From contig LR026962.1 in the NCBI GenBank assembly GCA_900498215.1, positions 2,960,892 through 2,997,115 on the forward strand: 36,224 nt of DNA, given 5' to 3'. Source of the stretch: an uncultured Paludibacter sp. Its GTDB lineage: Bacteria > Bacteroidota > Bacteroidia > Bacteroidales > Paludibacteraceae. The notes beneath the pieces are model-generated. The model saw nothing but the letters and a program-made list of their open reading frames with translations, had not been told where the DNA came from and did not search any database. This document shows positions 1,904 through 35,226 of this stretch, in pieces. A program made the translations under genes and the position numbers. Positions within the stretch are counted from its first letter, which is position 1; every line of letters starts with the position of its first letter.

Positions 1904-1922
1904 ACCTATAAAAATTCGAAAA

Positions 1923-3698: not shown

Positions 3699-3709
3699 AA
3701 CAAAGAAAT

Positions 3710-5260: not shown

Positions 5261-5266
5261 CAATAA

Positions 5267-5309
5267 TTTTAAGATTTTACCTCTCAACAAAAGAGGTAAA
5301 ATCTTAAAA
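5267..5309 (+). terminator. Perfect 18-bp hairpin ending the susCD transcription unit
   Basis: The two arms (5267-5284 and 5292-5309) are perfectly complementary over 18 bp around a 7-nt loop (CAACAAA), starting 7 bp after the stop of the beta-helix lipoprotein gene. The right arm ends in an A-run and the left arm begins with a T-run, so it could work on both strands, though both flanking genes run rightward. It separates the binding/import genes from the enzyme genes and may act as a partial terminator or a 3'-end stabiliser. Confidence 0.8.
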
Positions 5310-5369
5310 AATATTTACATACAAAAAGTTTGTTGACAAGTCTTTTCATTTACATAAAATTAAAATATA

Positions 5370-6989: not shown

Positions 6990-7080
6990 AGGTGAATCCG
7001 GTGCGTGTAAAGTAGCGAAGATATTTTTTTTAAAAATAAAGATAAAACACTTGAAAAGATTTGAGAAATTATTAAAATAA

Positions 7081-8244
7081 ATGAAAAAAATAATTTATAT
7101 ATCACTTTTTCTGTCTTTAGGATTAAATGTAGTTTCCTGTAAACCAAAATATTATATTAGAATGGCAGATTCGGAAATGACACGTAATCCGCAAAGTTGG
7201 ATGCTCGATTTTTCAGATAAACCAAAGTGGAGTTATTGTCAGGGACTGGAACTGCAAGCAATTTTACAAGTTTATAATAAAACCGGTGAAAAAAAGTATT
7301 TTGATTATGCTGAAAGTTTTGCCGATACGATGATAAATAACAACGGTTCAATAAAAACTTACGAACTTGAAAAATACAATTTGGATATGTTGAATTCAGG
7401 AAAAATCCTGTTTCCGATTTATGATATAACCCAAAAAACAAAATACAAAAAAGCAATAGATTTATTAAAAAGTCAAACTGATAACCAGCCAAGAGTTTCA
7501 AACGGTGGATTTTGGCACAAGAAAATTTATCCGCACCAGGTTTGGTTGGATGGAATTTATATGGCAATGCCTTTTTTAGCTCAATATGGAAAAGAATTCA
7601 ATCAACCGGAATTATTTGATGATATTACGTCTCAAATTATTAATGCAGAAAAAGATTTGAAGGATGAAAAAACCGGATTGCTTTATCACGGGTGGGAGGA
7701 AAGTCGCCAACAACGTTGGTCTGACCCGATTACAGGACGTTCACCTAATTTTTGGTCGAGAAGTATAGGTTGGTATATGATGGCATTAGTCGATGTGTTG
7801 GATTTTTTACCTGAAAATCATCCGAAGCGCACAGATATTATTCGCATTTTGAATGATTTATCTAAATCACTCGAAAAATATCAGGATAAAAAAACCGGAA
7901 TGTGGTATCAGGTAACAGATAAAGGAGGAAAAGAAGGAAATTATTTAGAATCTTCCGGCTCTATTATGTTTATTTATGCTTGGGTTAAAGGAGCTCAAAA
8001 AGGATATCTTCCTGAAGAATTTCTAAAAAAAGGGGAAAAAGCATATCAACAGTATGTAGAACAATTTATCAAAGAAAATCCTGATGGAACAATCAGTTTA
8101 ACAAATGTTTGCTCTGTAGCAGGACTTGGCGGAAATCCATATAGAGATGGAAGTTATGAATATTACATTTCAGAGCCCAAAAGAGACAATGACGCTAAAG
8201 CAGTTGCTCCCTTTATTATGGTAAGTATTATGTTAAACAAATAA
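7081..8244 (+). CDS. GH105 unsaturated galacturonyl hydrolase, predicted lipoprotein
   Basis: A 387-residue (alpha/alpha)6-barrel hydrolase of family GH105 (YteR/YesR type), which removes the 4,5-unsaturated galacturonyl residue from the non-reducing end of products made by pectate or rhamnogalacturonan lyases. The catalytic Asp is Asp157 in HQVWLDGIYMA; a second conserved Asp is Asp102 in LDMLNSGK. Further family segments are RSIGWYMMALVDVL and the C-terminal GLGGNPYRDGSYEYY. The N-terminus ends in VVSC (Cys20) after a hydrophobic stretch, so the protein is probably membrane-anchored outside the cytoplasm. It lies 91 bp after the GH28 gene and 27 bp before a PL1 lyase gene, whose products it would finish. 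Confidence 0.92.
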   Translation: MKKIIYISLFLSLGLNVVSCKPKYYIRMADSEMTRNPQSWMLDFSDKPKWSYCQGLELQAILQVYNKTGEKKYFDYAESFADTMINNNGSIKTYELEKYNLDMLNSGKILFPIYDITQKTKYKKAIDLLKSQTDNQPRVSNGGFWHKKIYPHQVWLDGIYMAMPFLAQYGKEFNQPELFDDITSQIINAEKDLKDEKTGLLYHGWEESRQQRWSDPITGRSPNFWSRSIGWYMMALVDVLDFLPENHPKRTDIIRILNDLSKSLEKYQDKKTGMWYQVTDKGGKEGNYLESSGSIMFIYAWVKGAQKGYLPEEFLKKGEKAYQQYVEQFIKENPDGTISLTNVCSVAGLGGNPYRDGSYEYYISEPKRDNDAKAVAPFIMVSIMLNK

Positions 8245-8271
8245 TAATAAGAATATTAAAATCACAGCAGG

Positions 8272-9651
8272 ATGGCACATAAATATATTTGGATAGTTTT
8301 ATTCCTTCTTTTAGCCGATTTTGGGACTCTTAATTCCCAAACTTTGGCATTTCCCGGAGCGGAAGGAGCCGGAATGTACACTACAGGAGGACGCGGCGGA
8401 AAGGTAATTTATGTAACATCCTTGGAAGATACGAATGAACCCGGCACTTTGCGCTGGGCGATAAATCAAAAAGGAAGCAGATTGGTGTTGTTTAAGGTTT
8501 CCGGTGTTATTCAATTGAACAGTCCATTGAAAATTAACAAAGGAGACATTACCATTGCCGGACAAAGCGCGCCCGGCGATGGTATTTGTATCAGAAATCA
8601 TGAAACAATTATCAGCGCTGATAACGTTGTAGTACGCTATATGCGGTTTCGGCTTGGCGATAACGCCAAAGAAGCCATTGATGCTTTTTCCGGGAAAGGA
8701 TGCAAGAATGTAATTGTTGATCATTGCAGTATGAGTTGGAGTGTTGATGAGGTTTCATCTTTTTACGATAATGAAAATTTTACTATGCAATGGTGTTTGA
8801 TTGCTGAAAGTTTGCGAAATTCCGTTCATAACAAAGGTGAACATGGTTACGGCGGAATCTGGGGCGGTAAAAATGCAAGTTTTCATCATAATTTTTTTGT
8901 GAGCCACGATAATCGGACTCCCCGTTTTTGTGGGAGCAGATACAGCGGTTTTCCTGAACTTGAAAAAGTTGATTTTAGGAACAATGTAATTTACAATTGG
9001 GGAAGTAATGATTCTTATGCCGGTGAAGGTGGAAGTTATAACATTGTGAACAATTATTACAAACCAGGACCGGCTACTAAATCCGACAAACATTTTCTAA
9101 ATCCATACGCGGATGATGGTAAAAATCATCAACCTGCAGGTATTTATGGTAAGTTTTATGTGAAAGGAAATGTGATGAAAGGAAATTGTAAAATAACGAA
9201 AGACAACGCTCTTGGTATAAAATTGAATACAACTTTTGAAAAATATGCTCCAAATGTTACATTGAATGATGTTATTCAAAAAACAGAATTTCCAATGCCC
9301 GCCGTTAAAACTCAATCGGCAAAAAAAGCATATAAAGACGTGTTGAAATTTTCAGGATGTTCATTAATTAGAGATACGTTAGACAAACGTTATGTAACGG
9401 AAACCGAAACGGGAACCTTTACATATAATGGTTCAAAAGGAAGCACAAAAGGATTAATTGATAGTCAAAATGATGTAGGTGGTTGGCCCGCATATAAATC
9501 ATTACCGGCGCCGCAAGATAGTAATGATGATGGAATTCCTGACGGTTGGCTCGAAAAAAAATATCCGAATAAAAAAGCAAACGATGTTGATATATCCGGA
9601 TATACTTATGTGGAAATGTATCTGAATAGTTTAGTAAAAAACATCAAATAA
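8272..9651 (+). CDS. PL1 pectate lyase, secreted
   Basis: A 459-residue polysaccharide lyase of family 1, cleaving de-esterified galacturonan by beta-elimination with Ca2+. A signal peptide covers about residues 1-22 (cleavage near NSQ). The mature protein opens with the Bacteroidota PL1 signature LAFPGAEGAGMYTTGGRGG and LEDTNEPGTLRWAI, followed by beta-helix rungs, VIVDHCSMSWSVDE (residues 147-160) and the Arg-containing SHDNRTPRF segment (Arg215/Arg218), where the catalytic Arg is expected. Near the C-terminus, PQDSNDDGIPDGWLEKKY resembles a Ca-binding thrombospondin type 3-like tail. Start chosen at ATG 8272 because the signal peptide begins there. The next gene starts 1 bp after its stop, indicating translational coupling with the methylesterase that prepares its substrate. 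Confidence 0.93.
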   Translation: MAHKYIWIVLFLLLADFGTLNSQTLAFPGAEGAGMYTTGGRGGKVIYVTSLEDTNEPGTLRWAINQKGSRLVLFKVSGVIQLNSPLKINKGDITIAGQSAPGDGICIRNHETIISADNVVVRYMRFRLGDNAKEAIDAFSGKGCKNVIVDHCSMSWSVDEVSSFYDNENFTMQWCLIAESLRNSVHNKGEHGYGGIWGGKNASFHHNFFVSHDNRTPRFCGSRYSGFPELEKVDFRNNVIYNWGSNDSYAGEGGSYNIVNNYYKPGPATKSDKHFLNPYADDGKNHQPAGIYGKFYVKGNVMKGNCKITKDNALGIKLNTTFEKYAPNVTLNDVIQKTEFPMPAVKTQSAKKAYKDVLKFSGCSLIRDTLDKRYVTETETGTFTYNGSKGSTKGLIDSQNDVGGWPAYKSLPAPQDSNDDGIPDGWLEKKYPNKKANDVDISGYTYVEMYLNSLVKNIK

Positions 9652-9652
9652 A

Positions 9653-10627
9653 ATGTTGGGATATAATAAAATATTACCGTTTTTATTTCTGATTTTTCTG
9701 TTGACAATATCTGAAATTACTTTAGCGCAACAACAAAAGAGAATTATTGTAGATAAAAAAGGAAACGGCGATTTTATTACTTTACAGGAAGCAATTAATT
9801 CTGTAAGAGCATTTGACCCCGACGGAAATGCAATCATTTTTGTGAAAGAAGGAGTTTATCACGAAAAAGTTGTCGTTCCTGAACAGATTTGCAATATAAA
9901 AATTATTGGAGAAAATAAAGAAAAAACCATTATAACAAATAACGACCACGCCAAAATAAACAACATGGGTACTTTTCGTACTTACACGTTGCAGATAAGA
10001 GGAAATGATGTTATACTGGAGAATTTGACAATTGAAAATAATGCTGAGCGAGTTGCACAAGCGGTGGCGCTACATACCGAAGGCGATAGAATATGGATTA
10101 GAAATTGTAATTTGCTTGGAAATCAGGATACGTTTTATGCAAACGGTGAGAACAGACGGCTTTATGTTGAGAATAGTTACATAGAAGGAACCACCGATTT
10201 TATTTTTGGAGGAGCAACAGCGTGGTTTGAAAATTGTAAAATTTATTGCAAACAAAATTCATTTATTACGGCAGCGCGCACGCCACAAAACATAAAGTAT
10301 GGATTTGTTTTCAATAATTGCAAAATTGCTTTGGCTGACAGTGTAAATTCGGTATATCTCGGTCGTCCGTGGAGAGCGTATGCAATGACAGTTTTTATGA
10401 ATTGCGATTTACCCAAAGGAATCAATCCAAAAGGTTGGGATAATTGGAGAAATCCTGAAAATGAAAAGACCGCCCGTTATTTTGAATATAATAATACAGG
10501 CGAAGGAAGCAAAATAGCGGAGCGGGTGAAATGGGCAAAAATTCTCACAAAAAAAGAGAGTAAAAACATAACAAGAAAGAAAGTTCTTGGCGATTTTAAT
10601 AAACAGATAATCAATAAAAATAATTAA
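9653..10627 (+). CDS. CE8 pectin methylesterase, secreted
   Basis: A 324-residue carbohydrate esterase family 8 enzyme that hydrolyses methyl esters of homogalacturonan, releasing methanol and exposing carboxylates for pectate lyases. A signal peptide spans about residues 1-25 (ending ITLAQ). The beta-helix carries all four CE8 motifs: Gln138 in QAVAL, Gln158-Asp159 in GNQDTFYA (acid/base Asp159), Asp182 in TTDFIFGGA (nucleophile) and Arg238 in YLGRPWR. Length is normal. The start codon lies 1 bp after the pectate lyase stop, so co-production of the two activities is very likely. Confidence 0.95.
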   Translation: MLGYNKILPFLFLIFLLTISEITLAQQQKRIIVDKKGNGDFITLQEAINSVRAFDPDGNAIIFVKEGVYHEKVVVPEQICNIKIIGENKEKTIITNNDHAKINNMGTFRTYTLQIRGNDVILENLTIENNAERVAQAVALHTEGDRIWIRNCNLLGNQDTFYANGENRRLYVENSYIEGTTDFIFGGATAWFENCKIYCKQNSFITAARTPQNIKYGFVFNNCKIALADSVNSVYLGRPWRAYAMTVFMNCDLPKGINPKGWDNWRNPENEKTARYFEYNNTGEGSKIAERVKWAKILTKKESKNITRKKVLGDFNKQIINKNN

Positions 10628-10658
10628 CCTTTTATTAACAATTTTAAAATTAAAACTT

Positions 10659-11327
10659 ATGAAAAAGATTTTACTTATTGCCTCTTTATTATTGGCAAAT
10701 ACCTTGTTAATTAGTGCTCAAAAAGTATGGAATTTTTCAGAAACAACTCTTTTTTCTGCACAGACATTTACAACAACTACTACAATTGATGGTTTAACAA
10801 TTGTAGCATCTGCAGACAAAACAATTGTCATCGATGGGAATAATAAAAGCATTGATGACTATTCTTTTACTCAAAGATTAAAATTAGGCGGTTCAGGTAC
10901 TGTTGATATCCGAAATGTGAATTTTGCTATTCCTACAGGCGATTGGACAATAACAGTTTACGGAATGGGTTCTTCTTCAGGCGTCCAAAGAACATTGGTG
11001 GTATCAGATGGAACAAGTGAAATATCGACTTTTGTAAATGACGGAACTGCCATAGGCAAAGCTTCTATAAATTACACAAACACGTCAGAAAGTACTCTTT
11101 ATATGTATTCTTTATCAAGTGGATTTAATATCTACTTGATAAAATATGAAGATGCGTCATTGTCAAGGACAGAGGATGTGAGCGATAGCAAACAAGTGGT
11201 TGATGTTCAGTATTTTGATGTTTTAGGTAAAAAAATTAATAGTGACTCCAAAGGTCTTGTAATTAAAAAAATTACTTATGAAGATGGAACAGCCGGAGTT
11301 GTAAAGACTTACATAAAAAGTAAATAA
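10659..11327 (+). CDS. Secreted protein of unknown function with a putative glycan-binding module
   Basis: A 222-residue protein that I cannot assign to a named family. Residues 1-20 are a signal peptide (cleavage after ISAQ). Residues 22-165 are rich in Thr, Ser and Gly and look like a beta-sandwich opening with KVWNFSETT, containing DYSFTQRLKLGGSG and ending in FNIYLIKYE. The layout resembles the module before the sorting tail of the large PL1 lyase on the other strand (14033-16291), and KVWNFS-type modules are common in Bacteroidota pectin lyases, so a stand-alone carbohydrate-binding role is plausible. The C-terminal 45 residues (QYFDVLGKKI, then KGLVIKKITYEDG) resemble a sorting-like tail but lack the usual Pro-Asn-Pro. 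It is the last gene of the enzyme unit, 31 bp after CE8, and is followed by a hairpin. Confidence 0.75.
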   Translation: MKKILLIASLLLANTLLISAQKVWNFSETTLFSAQTFTTTTTIDGLTIVASADKTIVIDGNNKSIDDYSFTQRLKLGGSGTVDIRNVNFAIPTGDWTITVYGMGSSSGVQRTLVVSDGTSEISTFVNDGTAIGKASINYTNTSESTLYMYSLSSGFNIYLIKYEDASLSRTEDVSDSKQVVDVQYFDVLGKKINSDSKGLVIKKITYEDGTAGVVKTYIKSK

Positions 11328-11344
11328 ATAATATCTTGCTAATT

Positions 11345-11380
11345 ATTATGGGTAATTGTATTTTTACAGTTACCCATAAT
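11345..11380 (+). terminator. Stem-loop between the small secreted protein and the GH43 gene
   Basis: Arms 11345-11360 and 11365-11380 pair over 16 positions, with one G-U wobble, around a TTTT loop. A T-rich stretch (TTATTTC) follows. It lies 17 bp after the stop codon and 20 bp before the GH43 start, so it probably ends or attenuates the preceding unit. Confidence 0.7.
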
Positions 11381-11399
11381 TTATTTCAAAAGGACTTCA

Positions 11400-13028
11400 A
11401 TGAAAAAAAATCTGTGCGTCATATATATAACTTTTGGTTTGCTGTTTTTCAATATTTCCGCGCAAAATTCAATATCAAAAACGTGGGTAGCGGATTTAGG
11501 TAACGGAACATATAAAAATCCTGTTCTGTACGCCGATTATTCTGACCCTGATGTGTGCCGTGTAGGAGAGGATTATTATATGACGGCTTCCAGTTTTAAT
11601 TGCATCCCGGGATTGCCTGTTTTACATTCTTACGATTTGGTAAATTGGAAAATAATAAATTATGCCATCGAGAAATTAACTCCTGAAGATGTTTTTTCAA
11701 TTCCTCAACACGGTAATGGAGTTTGGGCCCCTTCCATCAGATTTCATAATAATGAATTTTATATTTATTACGGCGACCCTGATTATGGTATTTTTATGGT
11801 AAAAACCAAAAATCCGGAAGGAAAATGGTCAGAACCTAAAATAGTAAAGGCGGGAAAAGGATTGATCGATCCTTGTCCGCTTTGGGATGAGGATGGTAGG
11901 GTTTATTTAGTTCACGCTTTTGCCGGAAGTCGTGCCGGTATAAAAAGTTTGTTAGCAATATCAGAATTGGACTCATTGGGTGAAAATGTAATTTCAAATG
12001 ACAGAATTATTTATGACGGTCATTTAATTGACCCAACCATTGAAGGACCTAAATTTTACAAGCGTAATGAGTTTTATTATATTTTTGCTCCCGCGGGAGG
12101 AGTTTCTACCGGTTGGCAAGTAGTGTTAAAATCAAAAAATATATTTGGACCGTATGAACGGAAAATAGTGATGGCGCAAGGAAATACTAAAATTAATGGT
12201 CCACACCAAGGAGCTTGGATAAACACTGTTTCCGGGGAAGATTGGTTTATCCATTTTCAAGATAAGGAAGCATTTGGAAGGGTTGTTCATTTACAACCAA
12301 TGATATGGAAAAATGATTTTCCTGTGATAGGAGTTGATAAGGACGGTGATGGTTGCGGTGAGCCCGTTTCAGAATATAGAAAACCCAATGTAGGTAAAAT
12401 CTACCTTATTGAAACTCCACAAGAGTCTGATGAATTTAATTCTAATGCGTTAAGTTTACAATGGCAATGGCATGCAAATCCTGAAAGTTGGTGGAGTTTT
12501 CCGGATATAACAAAAGGCGTGTTAAATTTATATTCGGTTCCGATTCCAAATAATTACAAAAATCTTTGGAATGCACCCAACTTACTGCTTCAAAAATTTC
12601 CGTCCGATAAATTTAAAGTTATCGTAAAATGGACATTTTATCCTTCTGAAAATTTGATAGGAGAAAGAGCGGGACTTATTATAATGGGAGTGGATTATGG
12701 CGTTGTAACATTGGAAAAAACAGAAAAAGGGCTTATTTTGTATCAGGCGGAATGTTTAAATGCCGATAAAGGAAATAAGGAAACGGTAAATAAATCAGTT
12801 TTAATAAATACGTCAACATTATATTTGCAAGCGAAAGTAAATTCTGATTCTAAATGTGTGTTTAGTTTCAGTACGGATGGAAATAGATTCAAAGAAATAG
12901 GTAAGGTTTTTGAAGCTAAACCCGGAAAATGGATTGGCGCTAAAGTGGGTTTATTCTGTTCACGTCCTCAAAAGACAAACGATGGCGGAAAAGTAGAAGT
13001 AGATTGGTTTAGAGTGGATAAATATTAA
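11400..13028 (+). CDS. GH43 glycosidase with C-terminal beta-sandwich (arabinofuranosidase/xylosidase type)
   Basis: A 542-residue secreted glycoside hydrolase of family 43. Residues 1-21 form a signal peptide (ending ISAQ). The five-bladed propeller covers about 36-325 and has the three expected acids: Asp49 in YADYSDPDV (base), Asp157 in GLIDPCPLW (pKa modulator) and Glu215 in DPTIEGPKFY (acid). Residues from about 335 to 542 form the concanavalin-like beta-sandwich often called GH43_C2, starting ESDEFNSNALSLQWQW. This build is usual for alpha-L-arabinofuranosidases and beta-xylosidases; which sugar it removes, from arabinan, arabinogalactan or xylogalacturonan side chains, cannot be decided here. 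The esterase gene follows after 13 bp. Confidence 0.9.
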   Translation: MKKNLCVIYITFGLLFFNISAQNSISKTWVADLGNGTYKNPVLYADYSDPDVCRVGEDYYMTASSFNCIPGLPVLHSYDLVNWKIINYAIEKLTPEDVFSIPQHGNGVWAPSIRFHNNEFYIYYGDPDYGIFMVKTKNPEGKWSEPKIVKAGKGLIDPCPLWDEDGRVYLVHAFAGSRAGIKSLLAISELDSLGENVISNDRIIYDGHLIDPTIEGPKFYKRNEFYYIFAPAGGVSTGWQVVLKSKNIFGPYERKIVMAQGNTKINGPHQGAWINTVSGEDWFIHFQDKEAFGRVVHLQPMIWKNDFPVIGVDKDGDGCGEPVSEYRKPNVGKIYLIETPQESDEFNSNALSLQWQWHANPESWWSFPDITKGVLNLYSVPIPNNYKNLWNAPNLLLQKFPSDKFKVIVKWTFYPSENLIGERAGLIIMGVDYGVVTLEKTEKGLILYQAECLNADKGNKETVNKSVLINTSTLYLQAKVNSDSKCVFSFSTDGNRFKEIGKVFEAKPGKWIGAKVGLFCSRPQKTNDGGKVEVDWFRVDKY

Positions 13029-13041
13029 TTTGGATAAAATT

Positions 13042-14010
13042 ATGAAAGACAGGTTTTGCGCGTTTTTATTTGTAATTGTTTTTTTGCCTTTTTTATTGTT
13101 TTCTCAACCGATAAAAAAGAACGAAATCCCTCGGGATACATCGTACACAATTTACAGCGCGTATAAAAAGATTAAGAAAAATTATCCGTTTATTTCTTTA
13201 ATTGATGAAAAATTGCCGAAAGGAGTAATTCAAAACAAAAACATCACTTATAAAATAATCGATCAAACGGATTATGGTAAACGTGAACTCAAACTCACTG
13301 TTTTCAGACCTGAGGATAAGCAAATTTATCCGGCGGTTCTTATTATTCACGGTGGAGGTTGGAGCTCAGGCACTCCCGGTATGATGAATGCGTTTGCACA
13401 AAACCTGTGTTTAAAAGGATTCGCGGCGGTTTGTGTTGAATATCGTTTAACTCCCGAAGCGATTTATCCTGCGGCGGTGGATGATTTGAACGACGCTGTT
13501 ATGTGGATATATAAAAACGCAACGAGATATAAATTGAATAAAAATAAAATTGCGGTTGCCGGATTTTCCGCCGGAGGCCAATTGGCTTCGCTTATCGGAA
13601 CAAAGAACAAGGATAAACTCATAAAAGCGGTTGTAAATGTAGATGGCATTACAAATTTTCTTGAAAAAGAAACCATAGATAGAGCCGAAAAAGCAAAGCG
13701 GGAAAACACGAAAATTCCTGTAGATGCACTTTGGCTTGGAGGAACTTTTTCAGAAAAATCCGAAGTTTGGAAAGACGCGTCTTCTGTTTTTTGGGTAACG
13801 GAAAATTCAGCGCCTACTCTTTTTATTTGCAGTTCTATTCCCCGCTTTCACAATGGAAGAGATGAGTATATACAGAATCTAAATTCATTTGGAATTTATT
13901 CCGACGCATATACATTTGATAATTGTCCGCATAGTTTTTGGCTTTTTTCTCCCTGGCAATCAATTACAATACAAAAAATGGTTGATTTTTTTTACAAAAT
14001 ACTGAAATAA
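13042..14010 (+). CDS. Secreted alpha/beta-hydrolase esterase, probably a pectin deacetylase
   Basis: A 322-residue alpha/beta-hydrolase. I take ATG 13042 rather than the TTG 12 bases earlier because it starts a clean signal peptide (MKDRFCAFLFVIVFLPFLLF, cleavage near SQP). Motifs: oxyanion-hole HGGGW at 103-107, nucleophile Ser176 in AGFSAGG, a candidate acid Asp274 and catalytic His297 in CPHSFW. The HGGG form belongs to the hormone-sensitive lipase/CE10-like group (BD-FAE type), whose members in glycan loci often remove acetyl or feruloyl groups. Placed directly behind GH43 in a pectin locus, acetylesterase action on acetylated pectin is the best guess, not proven by sequence. The gene converges with the PL1 gene on the other strand, with 22 bp between the stops. 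Confidence 0.85.
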   Translation: MKDRFCAFLFVIVFLPFLLFSQPIKKNEIPRDTSYTIYSAYKKIKKNYPFISLIDEKLPKGVIQNKNITYKIIDQTDYGKRELKLTVFRPEDKQIYPAVLIIHGGGWSSGTPGMMNAFAQNLCLKGFAAVCVEYRLTPEAIYPAAVDDLNDAVMWIYKNATRYKLNKNKIAVAGFSAGGQLASLIGTKNKDKLIKAVVNVDGITNFLEKETIDRAEKAKRENTKIPVDALWLGGTFSEKSEVWKDASSVFWVTENSAPTLFICSSIPRFHNGRDEYIQNLNSFGIYSDAYTFDNCPHSFWLFSPWQSITIQKMVDFFYKILK

Positions 14011-14032
14011 ATTTATGGATAATTAAATGCTG

Positions 14033-16291
14033 TTATTTACTTTTTATGATAATTTGAAGAATCATACCTTGTTTGGTTTTCGCTTTTAATAAGTAGCTTC
14101 CGGGAGTTAAATCAATCAAATCTATATTTTTTACATTTCCTTTAATTTGCCTTAAAACAGTTCCTGATAAACTATAAATAGATATTTGTTCTAATTCAAT
14201 ATCTTGAGGAGCATATAAATATCTTGTTATGGGATTAGGGTAAAATGCTGTTTTTGAGTTGTTAATAATTCCTACACCGGTAGAATCATATATCGTATTC
14301 ATATAAAAGAGGTAGTTGGAACCGCTTCCTTTCACTATTGTATGCGCACCGGAAGTAAGTGTTGCTGTAATTATTCCCGAAGATGGCGTGTAAACTGTTC
14401 CGTCAATTTTTACTGTTCCGGAATATGAACTGTTGAATACCAAAGTTACTGTGCCGGATTGAGTTGTAGTAAATGTAATATTGGTGGATGATTCTATTTT
14501 TAGACACTGTGTAAGTGTTAATCCATTGTAATTAACAGAGCCGTAACTTGTAGATAAATTTCCTGTAATTGTATAGAAAGAACTGGTTTTACCGGACAAA
14601 GTAAAGTTATGAATCATATCACCAGGCGAAGGTTCGGGATCGCCGCCCGGTTCCGTGGAAGTTGTGTCTCCCTGCACGGAAACAAGAGTTGTTTTATAAT
14701 TTGTAAGCGCTGATTTTAATCCGGAATTCACAGCGTAGGAAGCATCATCTACGGAATTGTCAAATGTCCATTTCAAATCGCCGCCTGTTACGCGTCCGGC
14801 ATATTGCATTACTTTTGTTTCGGCATCTTCAGGACTGTCAGGAGTATAATTATACATTACGGATGAATTAGTATCAAAATTATTGTATGTATTTGCTCCG
14901 TAAGCTGAATTTGTGTTGGAAGGAACTTGATCTGTCCTGTTTGAAACAACGTAAGCGTCAAAATCAACGGTTGAATTTATATAATTGGCGTCACCGTAAG
15001 GAACAAATCGTCGTTGTCCCGTCATATAATTATTGAATGCTTTTATTATTCCGCCGTCTTCGCTCGAAAAAGTGGGCATATTCTTATAATCGTTTGTTTG
15101 GGTTGTTTCATTCCACACATCAGAACCTTGCATCGAAATAAGCATCGGATATTTACAATTACGAAAATAATTGGCTTCTACAAAAACAGATGAACCTTCG
15201 GTGGAACCCACGCCGTATTTTGCAATTCCATCGTAATAATTATTGTAAACATGCGCGGAATAAAAACGCACGCGCGGATGTCTGGAATCTGAATGATCAT
15301 ACCAGTTGTGATGATAAGTAATAAATAAACCGGAAGTAGTTCCTTCGCTTAATCCCAGCAGGTTACTTTTACCGCTATCCCAAAAATGATTGTACGAGAA
15401 AGTTACATACGTTGATTTTTTACAGTCCAAAGCGCCGTCTCCTTTAATTTGGTCGGCGTCGCTTCCCGAGTTTCCATAAAACATATCGCAATTATGAACC
15501 CAAATATAATCATTGTCTTGCTGTAATCCCACATTGTCTCCTTCATCACTGTTACAATTCATAAATCCGATATTTCTTACCTCAATATTGGAAGCATTTT
15601 TAATACGAAGTCCCCATCCATCAGCAACGGCATCCTCTCCAACGCCTTCCATTGTTATATGGCCTAGAATATTATTTTTATTTTCAATAACAATATCACC
15701 GTTAAGCATATAATCCAGGTCAGTAATTTGTCCAACTAAACGTACAATTAAAGGGCGCGTGTCGTTTCCTTTTTTAAATCCATCTAAAATATTTTGTAAA
15801 CCCACACAAGGATTTGTATTCGCTCCCGTTACATCCATCGAAATGGTGTTTTTGCTGTTCTCCGTAATGTATAGAATAACCGCGCCATCTTTTGGAGTTC
15901 CATCTACTTTATAAGCTCCGGGAATGCGTCCGTTCCAAAACCCGAATCCGCTGCGATCATGTGAAACAACGATAAGTTCCGGAGTAATTGTACCAACGCT
16001 TTCAACATCTGAAATAACGGGAACTACTTTAATTGTATAAATACCGGCTTTAAGTCCCAAGATATCAGCTCGAAAATATGTTCCATAATTACGGATGAGT
16101 TGAGTGTCAATTTTTTTATCGGAAATTCCAGCGCCGGAATAATAAACATTATAGCTTTGCGCTTCAGTCACTGGTGCCCATTCCACATAAGCGCTTTCGA
16201 GCCAACCGGCTGATTTTATAATTGAAACAGATTGTGCCTGAATTGGTGATATGAATATCAAACCAATAAAAATTACTATGATTTTTTTCAT
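14033..16291 (-). CDS. Modular PL1 pectate lyase with T9SS C-terminal sorting domain
   Basis: A 752-residue secreted lyase. Order of parts: signal peptide 1-20 (ending IQAQ); an FN3-like region at about 22-110 (SAYVEWAPVTEAQSYNVYY); the PL1 beta-helix at about 115-450; a Pro/Gly/Glu-rich linker near 545-563; a beta-sandwich module at about 563-675; and a type A sorting domain at 683-752 (FYPNPITRYLYAPQ, SIYSLSGTVLRQI, DLTPGSYLLKA). PL1 landmarks are DADQIKGDGALDCKKST (277-293, Ca-binding Asp residues) and YHHNWYDHSDSRHPRVR (326-342), which holds the catalytic Arg. The sorting domain predicts export by the type IX secretion system and attachment to or release from the outer surface. It is transcribed alone, opposite to the rest of the locus. 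Confidence 0.93.
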   Translation of the reverse strand: MKKIIVIFIGLIFISPIQAQSVSIIKSAGWLESAYVEWAPVTEAQSYNVYYSGAGISDKKIDTQLIRNYGTYFRADILGLKAGIYTIKVVPVISDVESVGTITPELIVVSHDRSGFGFWNGRIPGAYKVDGTPKDGAVILYITENSKNTISMDVTGANTNPCVGLQNILDGFKKGNDTRPLIVRLVGQITDLDYMLNGDIVIENKNNILGHITMEGVGEDAVADGWGLRIKNASNIEVRNIGFMNCNSDEGDNVGLQQDNDYIWVHNCDMFYGNSGSDADQIKGDGALDCKKSTYVTFSYNHFWDSGKSNLLGLSEGTTSGLFITYHHNWYDHSDSRHPRVRFYSAHVYNNYYDGIAKYGVGSTEGSSVFVEANYFRNCKYPMLISMQGSDVWNETTQTNDYKNMPTFSSEDGGIIKAFNNYMTGQRRFVPYGDANYINSTVDFDAYVVSNRTDQVPSNTNSAYGANTYNNFDTNSSVMYNYTPDSPEDAETKVMQYAGRVTGGDLKWTFDNSVDDASYAVNSGLKSALTNYKTTLVSVQGDTTSTEPGGDPEPSPGDMIHNFTLSGKTSSFYTITGNLSTSYGSVNYNGLTLTQCLKIESSTNITFTTTQSGTVTLVFNSSYSGTVKIDGTVYTPSSGIITATLTSGAHTIVKGSGSNYLFYMNTIYDSTGVGIINNSKTAFYPNPITRYLYAPQDIELEQISIYSLSGTVLRQIKGNVKNIDLIDLTPGSYLLKAKTKQGMILQIIIKSK

Positions 16292-26815: not shown

Positions 26816-29281
26816 TTAAATAAAAATACTGCCTATTTGATAAGTGGCAAATGCCACTAACCATGCTAAAAAGGTAGTAAAAACCATTGTAAATATTGCC
26901 CAACTCCAGTTTGCTTCTTTCTTTATGGCGGCAATTACCGCTACGCAGGGAAAATATATCAGCACAAAAAGCATAAAGCCATAAGCCACAAGAGGTGTGA
27001 ATACTTTTTGCCCTTTCAGCTTGCCGCTGGTGTGTGTTTGACTTTGAAGTTTGTCAATCAAGCTGCTCGATGTCTCGTCCGCCGCCAAATCTGCGTGATA
27101 GAGAACGCCCATTGAACCCACCACAATTTCTTTGGCTGCCAGCCCCGTGATAATGCTTATTCCGATTTTCCAATCGAAACCCAACGGTTGAATTGCCGGT
27201 TCGATAAAATGTCCCAAGCGTCCTATGTAGGATTGTTCTTGATGTTCGGCTGTTTTCGCCAATTCAATTTCCGCAATCTTTTCAGATTTTACACTATCGG
27301 GTAAGCTGGTGTTTTGCTCTAAATAAGCTATTTGTTTGTCAAAATCGGAAGAATAATTTACGTGAATCGGATAATAACTTAACGCCCAAATAAGAATGGA
27401 TGCTAACAAAATCACCGTTCCCATTTTACGTAAATATTGGGAACCTTTGAACCACATATGTTTGGTGGTGTTTTTCATCGTAGGGATACGATAGGGCGGC
27501 AGTTCCATGACAAAGGGAACATCTTGTTTGGCAAATACTGTGTTTTTTAGCAACAAAGCGGTCAAAACAGCCAACAAAACTCCTATCAGGTAAACCGAAA
27601 GCAATACCAAACCTTGATTTTTTTGGAAAAAAGCCGAAATAATAAGCACATAAACAGGTAAGCGCGCGCTACACGACATAAATGGAGTGATAAGCATTGT
27701 AATAATCCGGTCTTTTCGGTTTTCAAGCGTACGAGTTGCCATTATGGCTGGTACATTGCAACCAAATCCCATTAATAAAGGGATGAAAGATTTTCCGTGC
27801 AGACCGATTTTGTGCATTAATCGGTCCATAATAAAAGATACGCGCGCCATATAACCCGTATCTTCCATAAGCGAAATGAAGAAAAATAAAATGAGAATGT
27901 TTGGCAGGAAAACAATTACACCGCCCACGCCGCCAATAACTCCGTCTATAATCAAATCGTGCAGAGCGCCTGCAGGGATTATGTCGTTCAGTAGGTTTCC
28001 GATGTAACCTACGCCTGATTCTATCCAATCCATAGGGAAACTTCCAATGGTAAACGTGGCTTGAAACATTAACCACATTAAAAAGAAAAAGATAGGGAAT
28101 CCCCAAATTTTATGTGTGAGCAGAAAATCGATATTACGTTTTTGCTTTTGGTCTGGCGCGTACGTGGTAACTTCTTTGAGCGCTCCGGAAATAAAACCGT
28201 ATTTAGCGTTTACAATTACCGTGTCTGAATTCTCGCCGTATTCTTTTTCCAAATTATCGACTTCCGTTTGAACAGCCGAAATAATTCTCGCGTAATTGTT
28301 GTGTGATTTTAGTTTTTCCAATACGCTTTTATCTTTTTCCAATAGTTTGATAGCCGTATAGCGTGTAGAATCATAAATTTTAGTAGCCTGACCCGTTTTT
28401 AATTCTTTCTGAATTTTCATTATGGCTTCTTCAATTACATTTCCGTAATTGATATGAATGTGTCTGACTATGGGATTTTTATCTTCATACACCTTAATTA
28501 CTTCTTCTATAAGTTCAGAGATACCCTCTCCTTTTACGGCTACCGTAGGAATAATGGGGATGCCGAGCATTTTTCCCAAATTTACGTAATCCAGATTTGT
28601 TCCTTTCTGCTTCAATTCATCATACATATTCAAAGCGATGATTACTTTGATGTTCATATCAATCAATTGAGTGGTAAGAAATAAATTCCGTTCCAGGTTT
28701 GAGGCGTCCACCACATTTATAATTATATCGGATTGCTTTTTCAAAATGTGATTACTTACGAAAAGTTCTTCAGGAGAATACTCTGTGAGCGAGTATGTTC
28801 CAGGTAAATCCGTAACTTTTAACTTATATTTTGGTGTGGAAATAATAGCTTCTTTTGCTTCCACGGTTACTCCGCTGTAATTACCGACACGTTCGTGTGA
28901 GTTTGACGCGTAGTTGAATAAAGTGGTTTTTCCACTGTTCGGATTTCCAACCAAGGCAATTTTAATGGCATTGCCTTTTTCTGCTTTTTCGAATATATTT
29001 TCTGTATTTTCATCAATTGTTCCGTTATATTCCGACAGGTTAATTTCATTTTGTTCGTTTTCGGGTACAACTTCAATCAACGCTGCTTCTTTGCGCCGTA
29101 ACGAAATGTTGTAATCCATAATTTCATACTCGATGGGGTCTTGCAGAGGCGCATTTTTAATTACTTTTACAGTTCGGCCCTTCACAAATCCCATTTCGGT
29201 AATTCGCTTGTGGAAGGTTTGATTTCCGCCCACTTTCACAATTACTCCTTTTTGATTATTTAATAATTCTGATAGATACAT
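26816..29281 (-). CDS. feoB: Ferrous iron transporter, FeoA-FeoB fusion
   Basis: An 821-residue inner-membrane Fe2+ importer. Residues 1-75 are a FeoA SH3-like domain (MYLSELLNNQKGVIVKVGG), normally a separate protein, fused to FeoB as usual in Bacteroidota. The G domain has GNPNSGKTT (112-120), the effector loop GNYSGVTVE, DLPGTYSL and the NMYDE segment as G4 (usual form NxxD). The transport part contains the two Gate/nucleoside-recognition halves with Cys-bearing segments GFGCNVPAIMATRT and FMSCSARLPVYV. It follows a porin gene by 12 bp and precedes the tiny Cys-rich gene, forming an iron-uptake operon. Confidence 0.97.
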   Translation of the reverse strand: MYLSELLNNQKGVIVKVGGNQTFHKRITEMGFVKGRTVKVIKNAPLQDPIEYEIMDYNISLRRKEAALIEVVPENEQNEINLSEYNGTIDENTENIFEKAEKGNAIKIALVGNPNSGKTTLFNYASNSHERVGNYSGVTVEAKEAIISTPKYKLKVTDLPGTYSLTEYSPEELFVSNHILKKQSDIIINVVDASNLERNLFLTTQLIDMNIKVIIALNMYDELKQKGTNLDYVNLGKMLGIPIIPTVAVKGEGISELIEEVIKVYEDKNPIVRHIHINYGNVIEEAIMKIQKELKTGQATKIYDSTRYTAIKLLEKDKSVLEKLKSHNNYARIISAVQTEVDNLEKEYGENSDTVIVNAKYGFISGALKEVTTYAPDQKQKRNIDFLLTHKIWGFPIFFFLMWLMFQATFTIGSFPMDWIESGVGYIGNLLNDIIPAGALHDLIIDGVIGGVGGVIVFLPNILILFFFISLMEDTGYMARVSFIMDRLMHKIGLHGKSFIPLLMGFGCNVPAIMATRTLENRKDRIITMLITPFMSCSARLPVYVLIISAFFQKNQGLVLLSVYLIGVLLAVLTALLLKNTVFAKQDVPFVMELPPYRIPTMKNTTKHMWFKGSQYLRKMGTVILLASILIWALSYYPIHVNYSSDFDKQIAYLEQNTSLPDSVKSEKIAEIELAKTAEHQEQSYIGRLGHFIEPAIQPLGFDWKIGISIITGLAAKEIVVGSMGVLYHADLAADETSSSLIDKLQSQTHTSGKLKGQKVFTPLVAYGFMLFVLIYFPCVAVIAAIKKEANWSWAIFTMVFTTFLAWLVAFATYQIGSIFI

Positions 29282-29293
29282 ACAATTTAATTT

Positions 29294-30439
29294 TTAGAAA
29301 GTAAAACCGAATCTGAAAATTGCCGCAAGAGCATTTTTTAGACTATTGCTTTGTCCTGAAGGATGGATAATGTATTGAATATCAGGTTGAATAAACAAAT
29401 ATTTTCCAATGGGTTTTTGCCAAGTGAGTTCAATTGCAGTTTCGCTATTAAGATTTGCGGTTAAATGTGCATGCGCCACAGAAAAACCCAAAATATCATC
29501 TCCTTTTTTACTCAAAAAACCGGAAGCATTCAAACCCAAACCAAGATATAAATTATTTGTGCTCAATTTTGAGGGGCTGTAACCGGCTTGTAAAAACGCA
29601 CCGATATTTTTATCGTTCGATTCCCACAACTTTTGATCGATAATAGAATATACGCCCCAAGTATTAGTGTTTAAGGAATCGGGAAAATTTTTATCCAGAC
29701 GCCTTTCTATAAAATGATCGTGTGCAAAAACCCCAATTTTATAGGTGCCTGATAAATTATTTAGATTAAATTGATGTTGAATTTCTGTTACTCCCAGCAC
29801 TCCATCACCTTTTTTAAACTGCCATTTTATATTATAAGGATTTTCTTCAAAATCTGTCGGCGAGCCGTCATATATTGCATTTATCCACGATGTTCTTTCT
29901 GAAATATTCCATTTTGAAGTAATACCCGGTGAGGTAAGAGGAAAAATGGGGGCGTGAAGATTTAGCGAAAAAGTAGGAATTATCCCGAATGAACTATTGA
30001 GAAATAAACCGCCGTATTCTGTACTTGCAAGTTCAACATTTAAATCTTGCAATCCAATGGTGAATTCTACTTTCCCTAATTGTTGTTTGTACCAAAGTTC
30101 CTGCAAATAAGTATGATTTCCGGCTTCGATATTTGAAACTACTTGTATATCTCCGAATAAAGTTTCAGTGGGAGTTCCGCCGTGCGTATTGGCTGCATTT
30201 ATAAAAAACTGTCCTCCTTTCCAAAGTCCCGCTTTTTCAATATCCAGTGCGATTTCAAAATTCGCAAATCCCAAATAGGTATATCCTTTTTTAATCCCTC
30301 CCGATAAATTTGCAACATTGTCGCCAACGTATGACGCTGCAAACGTCAATGAATTTTCTGATTCGTTTTCTGTTTCTTGAGCTTGAAGATAAAATGCCGC
30401 GATTGATAAGAAGAGAAGTAATAAAGTTTCTTTTTTCAT
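29294..30439 (-). CDS. OprB-like outer-membrane porin in the feo operon
   Basis: A 381-residue outer-membrane barrel of the carbohydrate-selective porin (OprB) type. Residues 1-20 form a signal peptide (ending YLQAQ). The mature part begins with a SLTFAASYVGDNVANLSGG stretch typical of this group, has alternating strands and turns such as GLWKGGQFFINAANTHG and LYLGLGLNASGF, and ends with a phenylalanine (FRFGFTF), the assembly signal. OprB members of known function pass glucose or other sugars; here the gene is 12 bp upstream of feoB, suggesting passage of ferrous iron or a small chelate. That role is inferred from position alone. Confidence 0.85.
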   Translation of the reverse strand: MKKETLLLLFLSIAAFYLQAQETENESENSLTFAASYVGDNVANLSGGIKKGYTYLGFANFEIALDIEKAGLWKGGQFFINAANTHGGTPTETLFGDIQVVSNIEAGNHTYLQELWYKQQLGKVEFTIGLQDLNVELASTEYGGLFLNSSFGIIPTFSLNLHAPIFPLTSPGITSKWNISERTSWINAIYDGSPTDFEENPYNIKWQFKKGDGVLGVTEIQHQFNLNNLSGTYKIGVFAHDHFIERRLDKNFPDSLNTNTWGVYSIIDQKLWESNDKNIGAFLQAGYSPSKLSTNNLYLGLGLNASGFLSKKGDDILGFSVAHAHLTANLNSETAIELTWQKPIGKYLFIQPDIQYIIHPSGQSNSLKNALAAIFRFGFTF

Positions 30440-30548: not shown

Positions 30549-31148
30549 CTATATGGTGCTTTCCAAAGTAATATGCTTATTTACAACAGCATATATAGTT
30601 AAACCGGAGGCGGATTTAATACCTGTTTTTTGGGAAATATTTTTCCGATGGGTAATAACAGTATTGATACTAATATTTAGTTTGTCGGCGATTTCTTTGT
30701 TTGATAACCCGAGCGCAAGCTGTTTCAAAACTTCTATTTCCCGCTCACTGAGTAATTTTTCGGTCGTATTTACAGTGTTTGAATCATCGGAATAGAGTTG
30801 ATTTTTAATAACATCTGTGATTTTTTCCGGTGTGTCATTAATATTAATTACCGCGTCGAAAAGTGAAAGTAACTGTTCATCAAAAAGTTGGTAAGTAAAT
30901 GCAATCCAATGGGAGGAAGCCCAATTTTTTCTGAAAGATTGAAATTCTTTATTGTTATATTGTGCAATGGAGGGATTGGCTATTAATATACTTTCAGGAA
31001 ATTTTCTCAGTGTTTTTTCCGCTTCAGATAAATCATCTGCTTGAGATACCTGTATAGATAAATTTGAAGACAAAATAGCTTTCAATAAACCTTGGTAGAG
31101 AATAAACGATGATTCTATAATGATAATATTTATTTTTTCCTTGTGCAT
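30549..31148 (-). CDS. LuxR/NarL-type regulator with a degenerate receiver domain
   Basis: A 199-residue transcription regulator. Residues 130-190 are a typical LuxR helix-turn-helix (LSEREIEVLKQLALGLSNKE, NTVITHRKNI). Residues 5-118 have the length and pattern of a response-regulator receiver, but the phosphorylation site is gone: the acidic pair after strand 1 is Glu12-Ser13, the strand-3 segment is ILIANPS (55-60) with no Asp, and the strand-5 Lys is replaced in AVININD. It therefore probably responds to a partner protein or ligand, not phosphate. It starts 1 bp after the hemerythrin-like gene and is surely co-transcribed with it. A weak hairpin (30529-30546) follows its stop. Confidence 0.85.
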   Translation of the reverse strand: MHKEKINIIIIESSFILYQGLLKAILSSNLSIQVSQADDLSEAEKTLRKFPESILIANPSIAQYNNKEFQSFRKNWASSHWIAFTYQLFDEQLLSLFDAVININDTPEKITDVIKNQLYSDDSNTVNTTEKLLSEREIEVLKQLALGLSNKEIADKLNISINTVITHRKNISQKTGIKSASGLTIYAVVNKHITLESTI

Positions 31149-31149
31149 A

Positions 31150-31878
31150 TTATTCTCTAATTTCCAATTCCATTTTCTCTACTAAAGGAATTAAAATTAA
31201 ATCTTCAATTAACGAATGTATTTTCAGGTCGTAATTTAATTCTGTCAGCTTAAAAAAGAGTTTTCGACGCACCTGACGATCTTCTTTGAGCGGAAGATAT
31301 TTTATTAGTAATTGTACCAAATCATCCAACTTTTCTTCAATATCATCATGGTGCTCTTTGTATTCCACAACCGAATAGGACGTGTTTTGAATGCACTCAC
31401 TTTTATCTTTGTTTTGTATACAGCGTATTAAACTGTTGATGTAAGGAAAAACAATTTCATTTTCGTATATCAGATGCTCTTTTACTTCGTTGAAATAGTT
31501 TTGAAAAAAATTATCCACCATCTTAATTTCCGGAGTATCATTTAATTTGTAAAGCAGTTGTATTGAATCCTGAATGGAAGGATAAATATCATTTAAGTAG
31601 TAGGTATGGCTGTTTTGTAGGTACTTAACAATAAGAGGTAAGTCGTTAATCATTAGATCATTAGGGGTGGCGTCTTCTGTTTCAATATATAAGTTGAGTA
31701 AATACAAGAACAGTCCAAATCGTATGTTTTTATCTTCGCATACTTGACCGACTGTTTTTGTCTGTTGTAACGGAAGCAATATGTCAAAATGCTCTAAAAA
31801 AAGAAGCACTTTAGGATGTTGCAAAACAATACTTGTAATAATTGTTTCGGGTGTGATGTTATTTTTTATCGTATTCAT
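31150..31878 (-). CDS. Hemerythrin-like di-iron protein of the RIC/YtfE type
   Basis: A 242-residue helical protein with hemerythrin-type metal ligands: His91, His135, Glu139, His176 or His177, His221 and Glu225. The HxxxE spacing (135/139, 221/225) is that of the RIC (YtfE/ScdA) family, which repairs iron-sulfur clusters after nitrosative or oxidative damage. Residues of about 10-62 resemble the ScdA_N segment (TVGQVCEDKNIRFGLFLYLL), but its usual Cys-Cys pair is missing. Co-transcribed with a LuxR-type regulator and divergent from perR. Oxygen, NO or iron sensing is another possibility. Confidence 0.85.
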   Translation of the reverse strand: MNTIKNNITPETIITSIVLQHPKVLLFLEHFDILLPLQQTKTVGQVCEDKNIRFGLFLYLLNLYIETEDATPNDLMINDLPLIVKYLQNSHTYYLNDIYPSIQDSIQLLYKLNDTPEIKMVDNFFQNYFNEVKEHLIYENEIVFPYINSLIRCIQNKDKSECIQNTSYSVVEYKEHHDDIEEKLDDLVQLLIKYLPLKEDRQVRRKLFFKLTELNYDLKIHSLIEDLILIPLVEKMELEIRE

Positions 31879-31911
31879 TGATGAAAAAATAAGTAAGAAA
31901 CTATTTTACTG

Positions 31912-31919
31912 CAAAGATA
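31912..31919 (-). promoter_or_regulatory. -7 box of the hemerythrin-regulator operon
   Basis: Minus-strand TATCTTTG matches the best form of TAnnTTTG, 34 bases before the start codon. The palindrome at 31936-31946 covers the place where the -33 element should be. Confidence 0.6.
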
Positions 31920-31935
31920 ATAGTTTTTATTATAA

Positions 31936-31946
31936 AGAATTATTCT
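31936..31946. promoter_or_regulatory. Palindrome AGAATTATTCT, candidate operator
   Basis: The arms AGAAT and ATTCT are complementary around one central base. The same element in reverse complement, AGAATAATTCT, occurs at 32012-32022 in the same intergenic region. The AT-rich 5-1-5 form is similar in style to Fur/PerR-family boxes. Placed at the -33 region of the hemerythrin promoter, binding would block transcription. Confidence 0.4.
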
Positions 31947-32011
31947 AAATTGAATATTTTTTAGTCGTCGCTGTGAACATTTTTCATCTCTTGTTGTTTT
32001 ATTATCAAAAG

Positions 32012-32022
32012 AGAATAATTCT
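32012..32022. promoter_or_regulatory. Palindrome AGAATAATTCT, candidate PerR autoregulation site
   Basis: Second copy of the element at 31936-31946, on the other strand, 76 bp away centre to centre and 17 bp before the perR start. No clean -7 box was found for perR, so the relation to its promoter is open. Confidence 0.4.
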
Positions 32023-32039
32023 TATCTAATAATTGTATT

Positions 32040-32459
32040 ATGAACTTAAAAGCTAAAATCTACGAAGTACTAAAAAATGCAGATTTAAGAATTACACCGC
32101 AACGTGTAGCGGTATTAGAAGCATTTTATACGTTAAAAAATCATCCTACGGCTGATAAAATTATCCAATTTGTACAGAAAAAAAACCCAAATATAGCGGT
32201 AGGAACGATTTATAAGGTAATAGATATACTTATTCAGAAAGAAATCGTTCGCCTTGTGAAAACTGATAAAGGGGTGATGCGCTATGATGAAATTCATGAT
32301 CATCACCATCATTTGGTGAGTGAGAATTCGGATATGATTGAAGATTATTATGATGAAGAATTGGATGAATTATTGAAAAAATATTTTGAAAAAAAGAGAA
32401 TTGAAAACTTTACTATTGAAGATATTAAAGTAGAAATTACCGGAAACTTTGATAAATAA
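32040..32459 (+). CDS. perR: Fur-family peroxide regulator PerR, cysteine-free
   Basis: A 139-residue winged-helix repressor of the Fur family. Metal-sensing residues match B. subtilis PerR with a constant offset of two: His35, Asp83, His89, His91 and Asp102 for His37, Asp85, His91, His93 and Asp104. Asp102 is the residue that marks peroxide-sensing PerR rather than Fur. The DNA-binding helix is in the ITPQRVAVLEAF to GTIYKVIDIL region. The protein contains no Cys at all, so the Cys4 structural zinc site of classical PerR is missing. The dps, katG and peroxiredoxin genes that follow are its expected targets. Confidence 0.9.
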   Translation: MNLKAKIYEVLKNADLRITPQRVAVLEAFYTLKNHPTADKIIQFVQKKNPNIAVGTIYKVIDILIQKEIVRLVKTDKGVMRYDEIHDHHHHLVSENSDMIEDYYDEELDELLKKYFEKKRIENFTIEDIKVEITGNFDK

Positions 32460-32546
32460 CGGAACTCAATAAATTATCCACCTGCTGTAATCGGCAGAAT
32501 ATAAATAACTCAAAACAAAATATTAACAAATAAAAAATAAAAGATT

Positions 32547-32996
32547 ATGAAAACAAACGAATCAACCAAAGTTATAAACCTGTTAAATCAGGTTTTATCG
32601 GATTTACAAGTAGTGTATCAAAACCTACGCGCCTCGCACTGGTTAATCAAAGGAAATCAGTTTTATCAACTTCATAAATTTTATGAAGAACTTTACAACG
32701 AAACATCTGAAATGGTAGATGAAGTTGCCGAACGTATTTTAATGTTAGGCGGCGAACCGCTGCACACATATTCCGACTATTTAAAAGCTTCTAAAATTAC
32801 TGTAGTTACAAAAGTTCCTAAAGGATTTGAAAGTTTAAAAACCGTGGTCGATGACCAAGAATATCTACTTGCTTCTTACCGTAGCATATTAGATGCAGCC
32901 GACGACAACAAAGACGAAGGAACAGTGGCTTTAATGAGCGATTTTATTGCTTCAACCGAAAAAAGATTATGGATGCTTCATTCAACTTTAGCTTAA
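32547..32996 (+). CDS. dps: Dps ferritin-like DNA/iron protection protein
   Basis: A 149-residue four-helix protein that forms 12-mers, oxidises Fe2+ with hydrogen peroxide and stores the iron, so limiting Fenton damage. The inter-subunit ferroxidase ligands are at the usual positions: His31 (ASHWLIKG), His43 (LHKFYEE), Asp58 and Glu62 (VDEVAERI). There is no long Lys-rich tail, so DNA binding may be weak. It lies 87 bp after perR and 40 bp before katG, within a peroxide-defence cluster. Confidence 0.96.
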   Translation: MKTNESTKVINLLNQVLSDLQVVYQNLRASHWLIKGNQFYQLHKFYEELYNETSEMVDEVAERILMLGGEPLHTYSDYLKASKITVVTKVPKGFESLKTVVDDQEYLLASYRSILDAADDNKDEGTVALMSDFIASTEKRLWMLHSTLA

Positions 32997-33033
32997 CTTG
33001 GAAACGCATATAAATGTATTATAATTAAAATGA

Positions 33034-35226
<2,193 letters not shown>

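Follow-up and report, generated by a model that had tools for sequence, protein, structure and literature searches.

How can a DNA-binding regulator be controlled once its receiver domain has lost the site of phosphorylation, and what is a hemerythrin doing beside it? This question is raised by two neighboring genes of an uncultured Paludibacter sp. (assembly GCA_900498215.1, contig LR026962.1), situated in a stretch of 36,224 nucleotides that was analyzed as a whole and is called the window in the following. An initial annotation suggested that the two gene products may be a one-off sensor/effector pair, in which a RIC-like hemerythrin would report O2, NO or iron to a phosphorylation-dead regulator by direct contact.

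The pair is a member of an operon type that is already in print. PG1236-37 of P. gingivalis, which includes CdhR, and BT0519-0520 of B. thetaiotaomicron each unite a hemerythrin and a response-regulator-type gene in one operon, and Prevotella intermedia has a fused counterpart, PIN17_RS10465 (PMC10434189). When iron is low, expression of PG1236-37 rises about 7 fold and that of BT0519-0520 16-20 fold (PMC10434189). CdhR regulates hmuYR by a mechanism that the same paper states to be unclear, and the words 'receiver' and 'phosphorylat' are absent from its main text. Accounts of the direction of this control differ: the pg1237 product is called a repressor of hmu in one (PMC2671838), whereas cdhR and hmuYR rise together in another (PMC9666725). 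What is new here is a conserved dead pocket in the receiver, receiver-less fusions of repeated origin, a linkage to FeoAB and, in another clade, a candidate operator.

Results

The locus

The hemerythrin gene (31150..31878, minus strand; 242 aa) and the LuxR/NarL-type regulator gene (30549..31148, minus strand; 199 aa) are open reading frames separated by a single base (31149), just as initially annotated. A gene for an OprB-family porin (29294..30439, minus strand) lies 109 bp 3' of the regulator, and a FeoA-FeoB ferrous iron transporter (26816..29281, minus strand) is encoded 12 bp beyond the porin; the order on the minus strand is hemerythrin, regulator, porin, FeoAB.

On the other side, an intergenic region (31879..32039) separates the operon from a divergent Fur-family gene (32040..32459, plus strand), which we read as perR-like. 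It belongs to an oxidative-stress neighborhood (32040-35226) that also contains a ferritin-like gene, read as dps or dps-like, and a gene that we call katG-like on the strength of its sequence. Elsewhere in the window (20-16291), SusC/SusD-like genes are followed by apparent pectin-degrading enzymes, again judged by sequence alone.

A predicted receiver fold without phospho-acceptor

The regulator is composed of a pseudo-receiver (about residues 5-120) and a GerE domain (132-187). The GerE domain is found by Pfam with an E-value of 7.7e-18 and 64.3 bits, against a cut-off of 23.5, which places the protein in the NarL/FixJ (GerE) family and bears out the earlier description of a good LuxR DNA-binding domain; Response_reg is absent among its Pfam hits at E<=0.1. 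Likewise, at E 0.01, GerE is found in 107/107 regulators of the family and Response_reg in eight of the 107. A profile built from these relatives can be aligned over almost its entire length with response regulators of the NarL family, VraR-type ones among them. Furthermore, strands and helices of the predicted model (mean pLDDT 92.8) succeed one another as in receivers, helix 4 being short, and the model matches 2qxy with Z 15.0 and an rmsd of 2.1 over 114 residues. The predicted receiver fold is thus intact.

Strand 3 of this model comprises residues 54-57, which puts N58 (codon 58 by position; 30975..30977, minus strand) where the phospho-Asp would be, and the family alignment places it there as well. 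I103/N104 lie about at the place of the Lys, and E12/S13 correspond to the acidic pair. The loss of the phospho-acceptor and of the conserved Lys, both claimed initially, is therefore confirmed. The acidic pocket, said to be lost too, is so only in part: its second position is S13, but Glu12 remains.

In the 107 aligned regulators, the phospho-Asp column holds N in 78, S in 11, D in nine and other residues in nine, such that Asp is missing from 98. Of the two acidic positions, the first holds E in 73/107 and D in 8/107, and the second holds P in 60/107. Asp and a Lys in columns 102-105 occur together in 0/107: the three rows with Lys (L058, L091, L127) all lack the phospho-Asp, and the nine with Asp (L040, L043, L059, L060, L082, L113, L123, L136, L142) have neither the Lys nor an acidic residue at either pocket position. 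As controls we used 20 other LuxR-domain regulators, drawn from lower search hits in the window's own and related genomes; 18 of them have receivers, and 15 of these keep both Asp and Lys, as counted by eye (the exceptions being L215, L218 and L222). Among the receiver positions, N58 ranks second in conservation, and the top 18 also include S14, E12, P59, P13 and D105, located in loops that follow strands 1, 3 and 5. With this pattern of conservation, the old phospho-pocket looks reused rather than decayed.

The window regulator accordingly lacks the Asp and Lys of a phospho-accepting response regulator and has a receiver fold without phospho-Asp, as do the pseudo-receivers RitR, FrzS, ChxR and NblR (PMC4395418; PMC12632262). 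In aspartate-less receivers, as far as these two sources describe them, the first acidic residue tends to stay (65%) and the second does not, and a basic residue occupies the place of the Lys in 70%, whereas in the present family the Lys is nearly always gone. Also unlike the pseudo-receivers surveyed there, this family has a conserved partner gene of the di-iron type; PMC12632262, a review from 2025, nowhere uses the word 'hemerythrin' in its main text.

A RIC-like hemerythrin below the RIC cut-off

The putative di-iron ligands of the window hemerythrin are H91, H135, E139, H177, H221 and E225. All six columns are invariant in 107/107 aligned hemerythrins, as is Y128. C47, which lies outside the RIC CC motif, is present in 103/107 relatives; its equivalent in the fusion protein L029, C43, is invariant across the 24 fusions described below.

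When the family profile was compared with solved structures, it matched ScdA (E 1.7e-14) and YtfE (E 2.4e-9, with the first His one column out of register). The same two proteins are the best structural matches of the predicted model (pLDDT 92.1), with Z 13.1 for ScdA and Z 12.9 for YtfE, values to be read with the ease in mind with which helix bundles score high, designed bundles also reaching Z 12.9 against this model. The window hemerythrin thus shares the fold and the RIC-type His/Glu ligand set with the RIC proteins YtfE and ScdA (PMC9268430). In contrast to RIC proteins as described there, it is paired with a regulator, or fused to one in some relatives, scores far below the cut-off of the RIC model TIGR03652 (52.6 against 204.7 bits) and has no CC of the DfCCgG motif that marks the RIC N-terminal domain; a CC is found there in one of 107 rows (L142), and alignment columns 35-38 mostly read L-G-F-G. 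On both counts, cut-off and CC motif, we rejected ordinary RIC as the identity of the family. It is not a canonical five-His hemerythrin either, as the HxxxH of the third motif is missing and no His occurs at position 181 in 107 rows (E 90, D 9, Q 4, A 2, V 1, K 1). With the Pfam Hemerythrin model, it scores 24.2 against a cut-off of 25.3, and 25.6 with neighbors in the frame.

Among the matches listed for a sample of 296 genomes of the phylum, ten genomes, the window's own included, score 242-288 bits with the hemerythrin profile and all other matches <=141 bits, a sharp split. In family f59, scores among the matches listed descend from 271 to 161 bits before a break, with the fusions lowest. 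We tentatively read the low-scoring group as ordinary RICs. Several genomes hold a second, lower-scoring hemerythrin as well; in the window's own genome, one hemerythrin match was found.

Conservation of the gene pair

A hemerythrin match was found in 170/247 genomes of the order, a number that may include ordinary RICs. The loci studied further amount to 114 rows: 109 listed order-wide matches in near score order, the window, and four further loci, two of which are copies of contigs already in the order-wide list; three matches within the score range (G091:C49, G249:C149, G031:C38) and weaker ones lie outside this sample. The regulator is directly downstream of the hemerythrin in 107/114 rows, with gaps of -104 to +52 for first-start ORFs. 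Three of the remaining seven (L045, its copy L062, and L088) stop at a contig edge, three (L078, L108, L128) have no regulator beside the hemerythrin, and in L083 (2480-3805) the order is reversed, with the regulator first. The alignments cover 107 pairs, window included, with the copy L061 dropped and L083 added; mean column identity of the two protein alignments is 29% and 33%.

Seen from the regulator side, the hemerythrin is adjacent in 27 of 29 loci, fused in one and absent in one (L019), several of these loci coinciding with loci of the 114-row sample. By these counts from either side, the adjacency of hemerythrin and regulator exceeds chance. The survey of homologues that had been suggested with the initial annotation therefore speaks for conservation of both the pair (107/114) and the pocket without Asp (98/107); the pair itself is widespread and, with its published counterparts in P. 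gingivalis, B. thetaiotaomicron and P. intermedia, far from a one-off.

Hemerythrin-GerE fusions that lack the receiver

Long frames (310-370 codons) with hemerythrin matches are many in family f59, and one is found in the window's own family. Such length alone is no proof of fusion, since L152 and L162 have 315-317 codons yet are unfused. We identified 24 hemerythrin-GerE fusions of 311-369 aa (L029 at 784-1725, L148, L174, L182 and L185-L204) in which profile search finds no receiver: Pfam detects GerE and Hemerythrin in 24/24 and Response_reg in 0/24. As the 20 loci L185-L204 were picked for frame length, the share of fusions is not a frequency.

Mapped on a tree computed from 104 hemerythrin domains, the fused state requires at least six changes, four of them forced by strongly supported branches; these are quick trees in which L029 sits on a long branch, and such changes alone cannot separate fusion from splitting. 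A single clade is rejected for all 24 fusions (p 4e-132), for the 23 without L029 (p 1e-45), for the 23 without L148 (p 0.0018) and for L029 and L148 together (p 0.00013). It is allowed for the 22 others (AU p 0.144), which may represent one event. From these rejections, it follows that the fusions have at least three separate origins. Of the two readings, fusion accompanied by receiver loss is simpler than splitting. In one genome, G662, a fusion (L192) coexists with a split pair (L165). In the literature searched, we found no published account of receiver-less hemerythrin-GerE fusions or of the receiver of CdhR.

Iron genes and a candidate operator

Downstream stretches of 16 relatives were searched for the genes that follow the pair in the window. 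In L259, L260 and L261, the regulator is likewise followed by the porin and then FeoAB; L268 has FeoAB without a matched porin; L262, whose stretch is cut by the contig end, has a porin, with FeoAB not found; and in L271, of the same genus, a porin follows the regulator with no FeoAB in the stretch searched. In total, a porin is found in 5/16 and FeoAB in 4/16. A survey of downstream neighbors gave OprB in 7/59 (window included) and FeoB in 2/59, and upstream neighbors have FeoB transporter domains in 3/85; G682 and G710 have a FeoB match immediately before the hemerythrin, on its strand. Most other neighbors of the pair varied, and the iron linkage is therefore confined to some clades.

A palindrome of another clade, ATMCCYA-N4-TRGGKAT, is found with <=2 mismatches upstream of 48/181 hemerythrin genes (12 of the 48 fused) and in 14/1810 of a shuffled control, the consensus having been derived from the same data on which it was scored and the rows being related. 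Examples are L141, L137, L171 and L182, upstream of the hemerythrin, and also L228 (1501-1518). The palindrome is similar to the NarL 7-2-7 heptamer arrangement. Of three exact matches in G188, judged by eye, one lies 107 bp before feoAB, one lies before a TonB-dependent-receptor-like gene and the third is unassigned; G641 has one, before the hemerythrin, and G710, G682 and G668 have none. Upstream of the window operon (31879..32039), the palindrome was not found (best 7 mismatches), nor was a comparable upstream motif in the window's clade.

Own-genome matches to a stricter consensus with 3 mismatches numbered 18, fewer than the 29 of a reversed control. Near feoB, the palindrome with <=2 mismatches occurs at 3/14 loci of genomes with the pair and at 2/11 usable loci of genomes without it (L235, L229; L232 and L252 were unusable). 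This feoB-locus test failed to tie the motif to the regulator, and we do not assign the palindrome to this regulator; for the clade in which it occurs, it is a candidate operator.

Discussion

We consider it probable that the pair constitutes a CdhR-type two-protein sensor/regulator of iron, and probably also of oxygen or redox state, with the hemerythrin as input, the pseudo-receiver as dock and the GerE domain as output. In such a system, the hemerythrin would bind a di-iron center, whose occupancy or oxidation state would alter its shape; it would dock on the pseudo-receiver, which no longer takes phosphate, and docking would in turn alter the DNA binding of the regulator at genes for the uptake of heme and iron, to which the downstream porin-FeoAB genes would probably belong here. 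The parts of this scheme that we infer are that the hemerythrin binds metal and touches the regulator, what it senses, which genes are the targets and in which direction they are controlled. In the literature that was read, reports of interaction, metal content or DNA binding by purified protein were found for none of the pairs.

That the hemerythrin is the likely input partner, as proposed initially, is supported by the conserved pairing, the invariant ligands and the repeated fusions in which it replaces the receiver. The last point carries most for the roles of the two proteins: at least three separate lines keep the hemerythrin without the receiver, which is hard to reconcile with a receiver that has its own input, and the most likely sensor is therefore the hemerythrin, with the pseudo-receiver serving as its dock. 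Iron or redox state is the likeliest signal, given the ligand invariance, the FeoAB linkage in some clades and the published low-iron induction; among O2, NO and iron, iron has the best circumstantial support.

Like PG1236-37 and BT0519-0520, to which kinship is judged by the published description of the genes, the window has adjacent hemerythrin and response-regulator-type genes; unlike them, its operon continues into porin and FeoAB. A hemerythrin domain as input module, as proposed here, is also described for Bhr-DGC (PMC9388753) and plant BRUTUS (PMC12022348). As these sources portray the two, the present system differs in having a DNA-binding protein as its output; 'DNA-binding' and 'LuxR' are absent from the main text of PMC9388753.

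Several observations count against the sensor/regulator reading: operon partners need not touch, three hemerythrins lack the regulator (L078, L108, L128) and one regulator lacks the hemerythrin (L019), nine of 107 receivers keep Asp, 22 of the fusions may go back to one event, iron genes adjoin the pair in some clades only, and the operator motif is not tied to the regulator. The foremost alternative is a RIC-type repair or protection hemerythrin, acting as iron donor or in NO/O2 handling, that is merely co-expressed from an iron-responsive promoter with a constitutively active regulator. It would account for the RIC fold and RIC-type ligands and for the joint induction of both genes in low iron (PMC10434189), and a model is in print for Shewanella in which the atypical regulator SsoR is constitutively active and controlled by Fur. 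Yet the repeated fusions keep the hemerythrin without the receiver, a single row of 107 (L142) has the RIC CC motif, and several genomes hold the second, lower-scoring hemerythrin besides, such that we regard co-expression alone as rather unlikely.

Another possibility is that the pseudo-receiver responds to something else, for instance a small ligand or the phosphorylation of a tyrosine, with the hemerythrin as one of several modifiers. A pseudo-receiver that binds c-di-GMP is in print, and CdhR of P. gingivalis is reported to be under tyrosine-phosphatase/kinase control: Ltp1/Ptk1/Php1 signaling is said to converge on it, and one paper speaks of CdhR phosphorylation in its discussion. The measured effect of Ptk1, however, is on the level of cdhR mRNA, direct phosphorylation being described as under investigation, and the fusions lack the receiver. 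The published mention of CdhR phosphorylation, together with the negative operator test, slightly raises this explanation, which we still hold to be improbable, and slightly weakens the sensor/regulator reading. Finally, a receiver that still accepts phosphate in some members, of which the window regulator would be a decaying copy, is barely credible, for the nine Asp-bearing regulators that suggest it have neither Lys nor an acidic residue at either pocket position, and the Asn that replaces Asp elsewhere is conserved rather than random.

Returning to the reading of hemerythrin as input and pseudo-receiver as dock, we are evenly divided over a stricter version, a 'split one-component' system, in which a di-iron hemerythrin would sense iron or redox state and the pseudo-receiver would be purely a protein-docking adaptor to the DNA-binding domain. 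With an adaptor of this kind, evolution could repeatedly fuse the sensor to the DNA-binding domain and discard the adaptor.

The switching of bacterial pseudo-receivers has been called a mystery in a 2025 review (PMC12632262). In the large family described here, the pseudo-receiver is accompanied by a conserved partner whose putative metal site is intact, and natural fusions offer a built-in control, which makes the question of mechanism testable with few experiments. If the reading is true, it would define how a widespread class of pseudo-receivers is activated, and the sensing of iron by plant hemerythrins would have a counterpart in bacterial transcription. For these bacteria, it would mean an iron sensor that acts on the uptake of both heme and ferrous iron.
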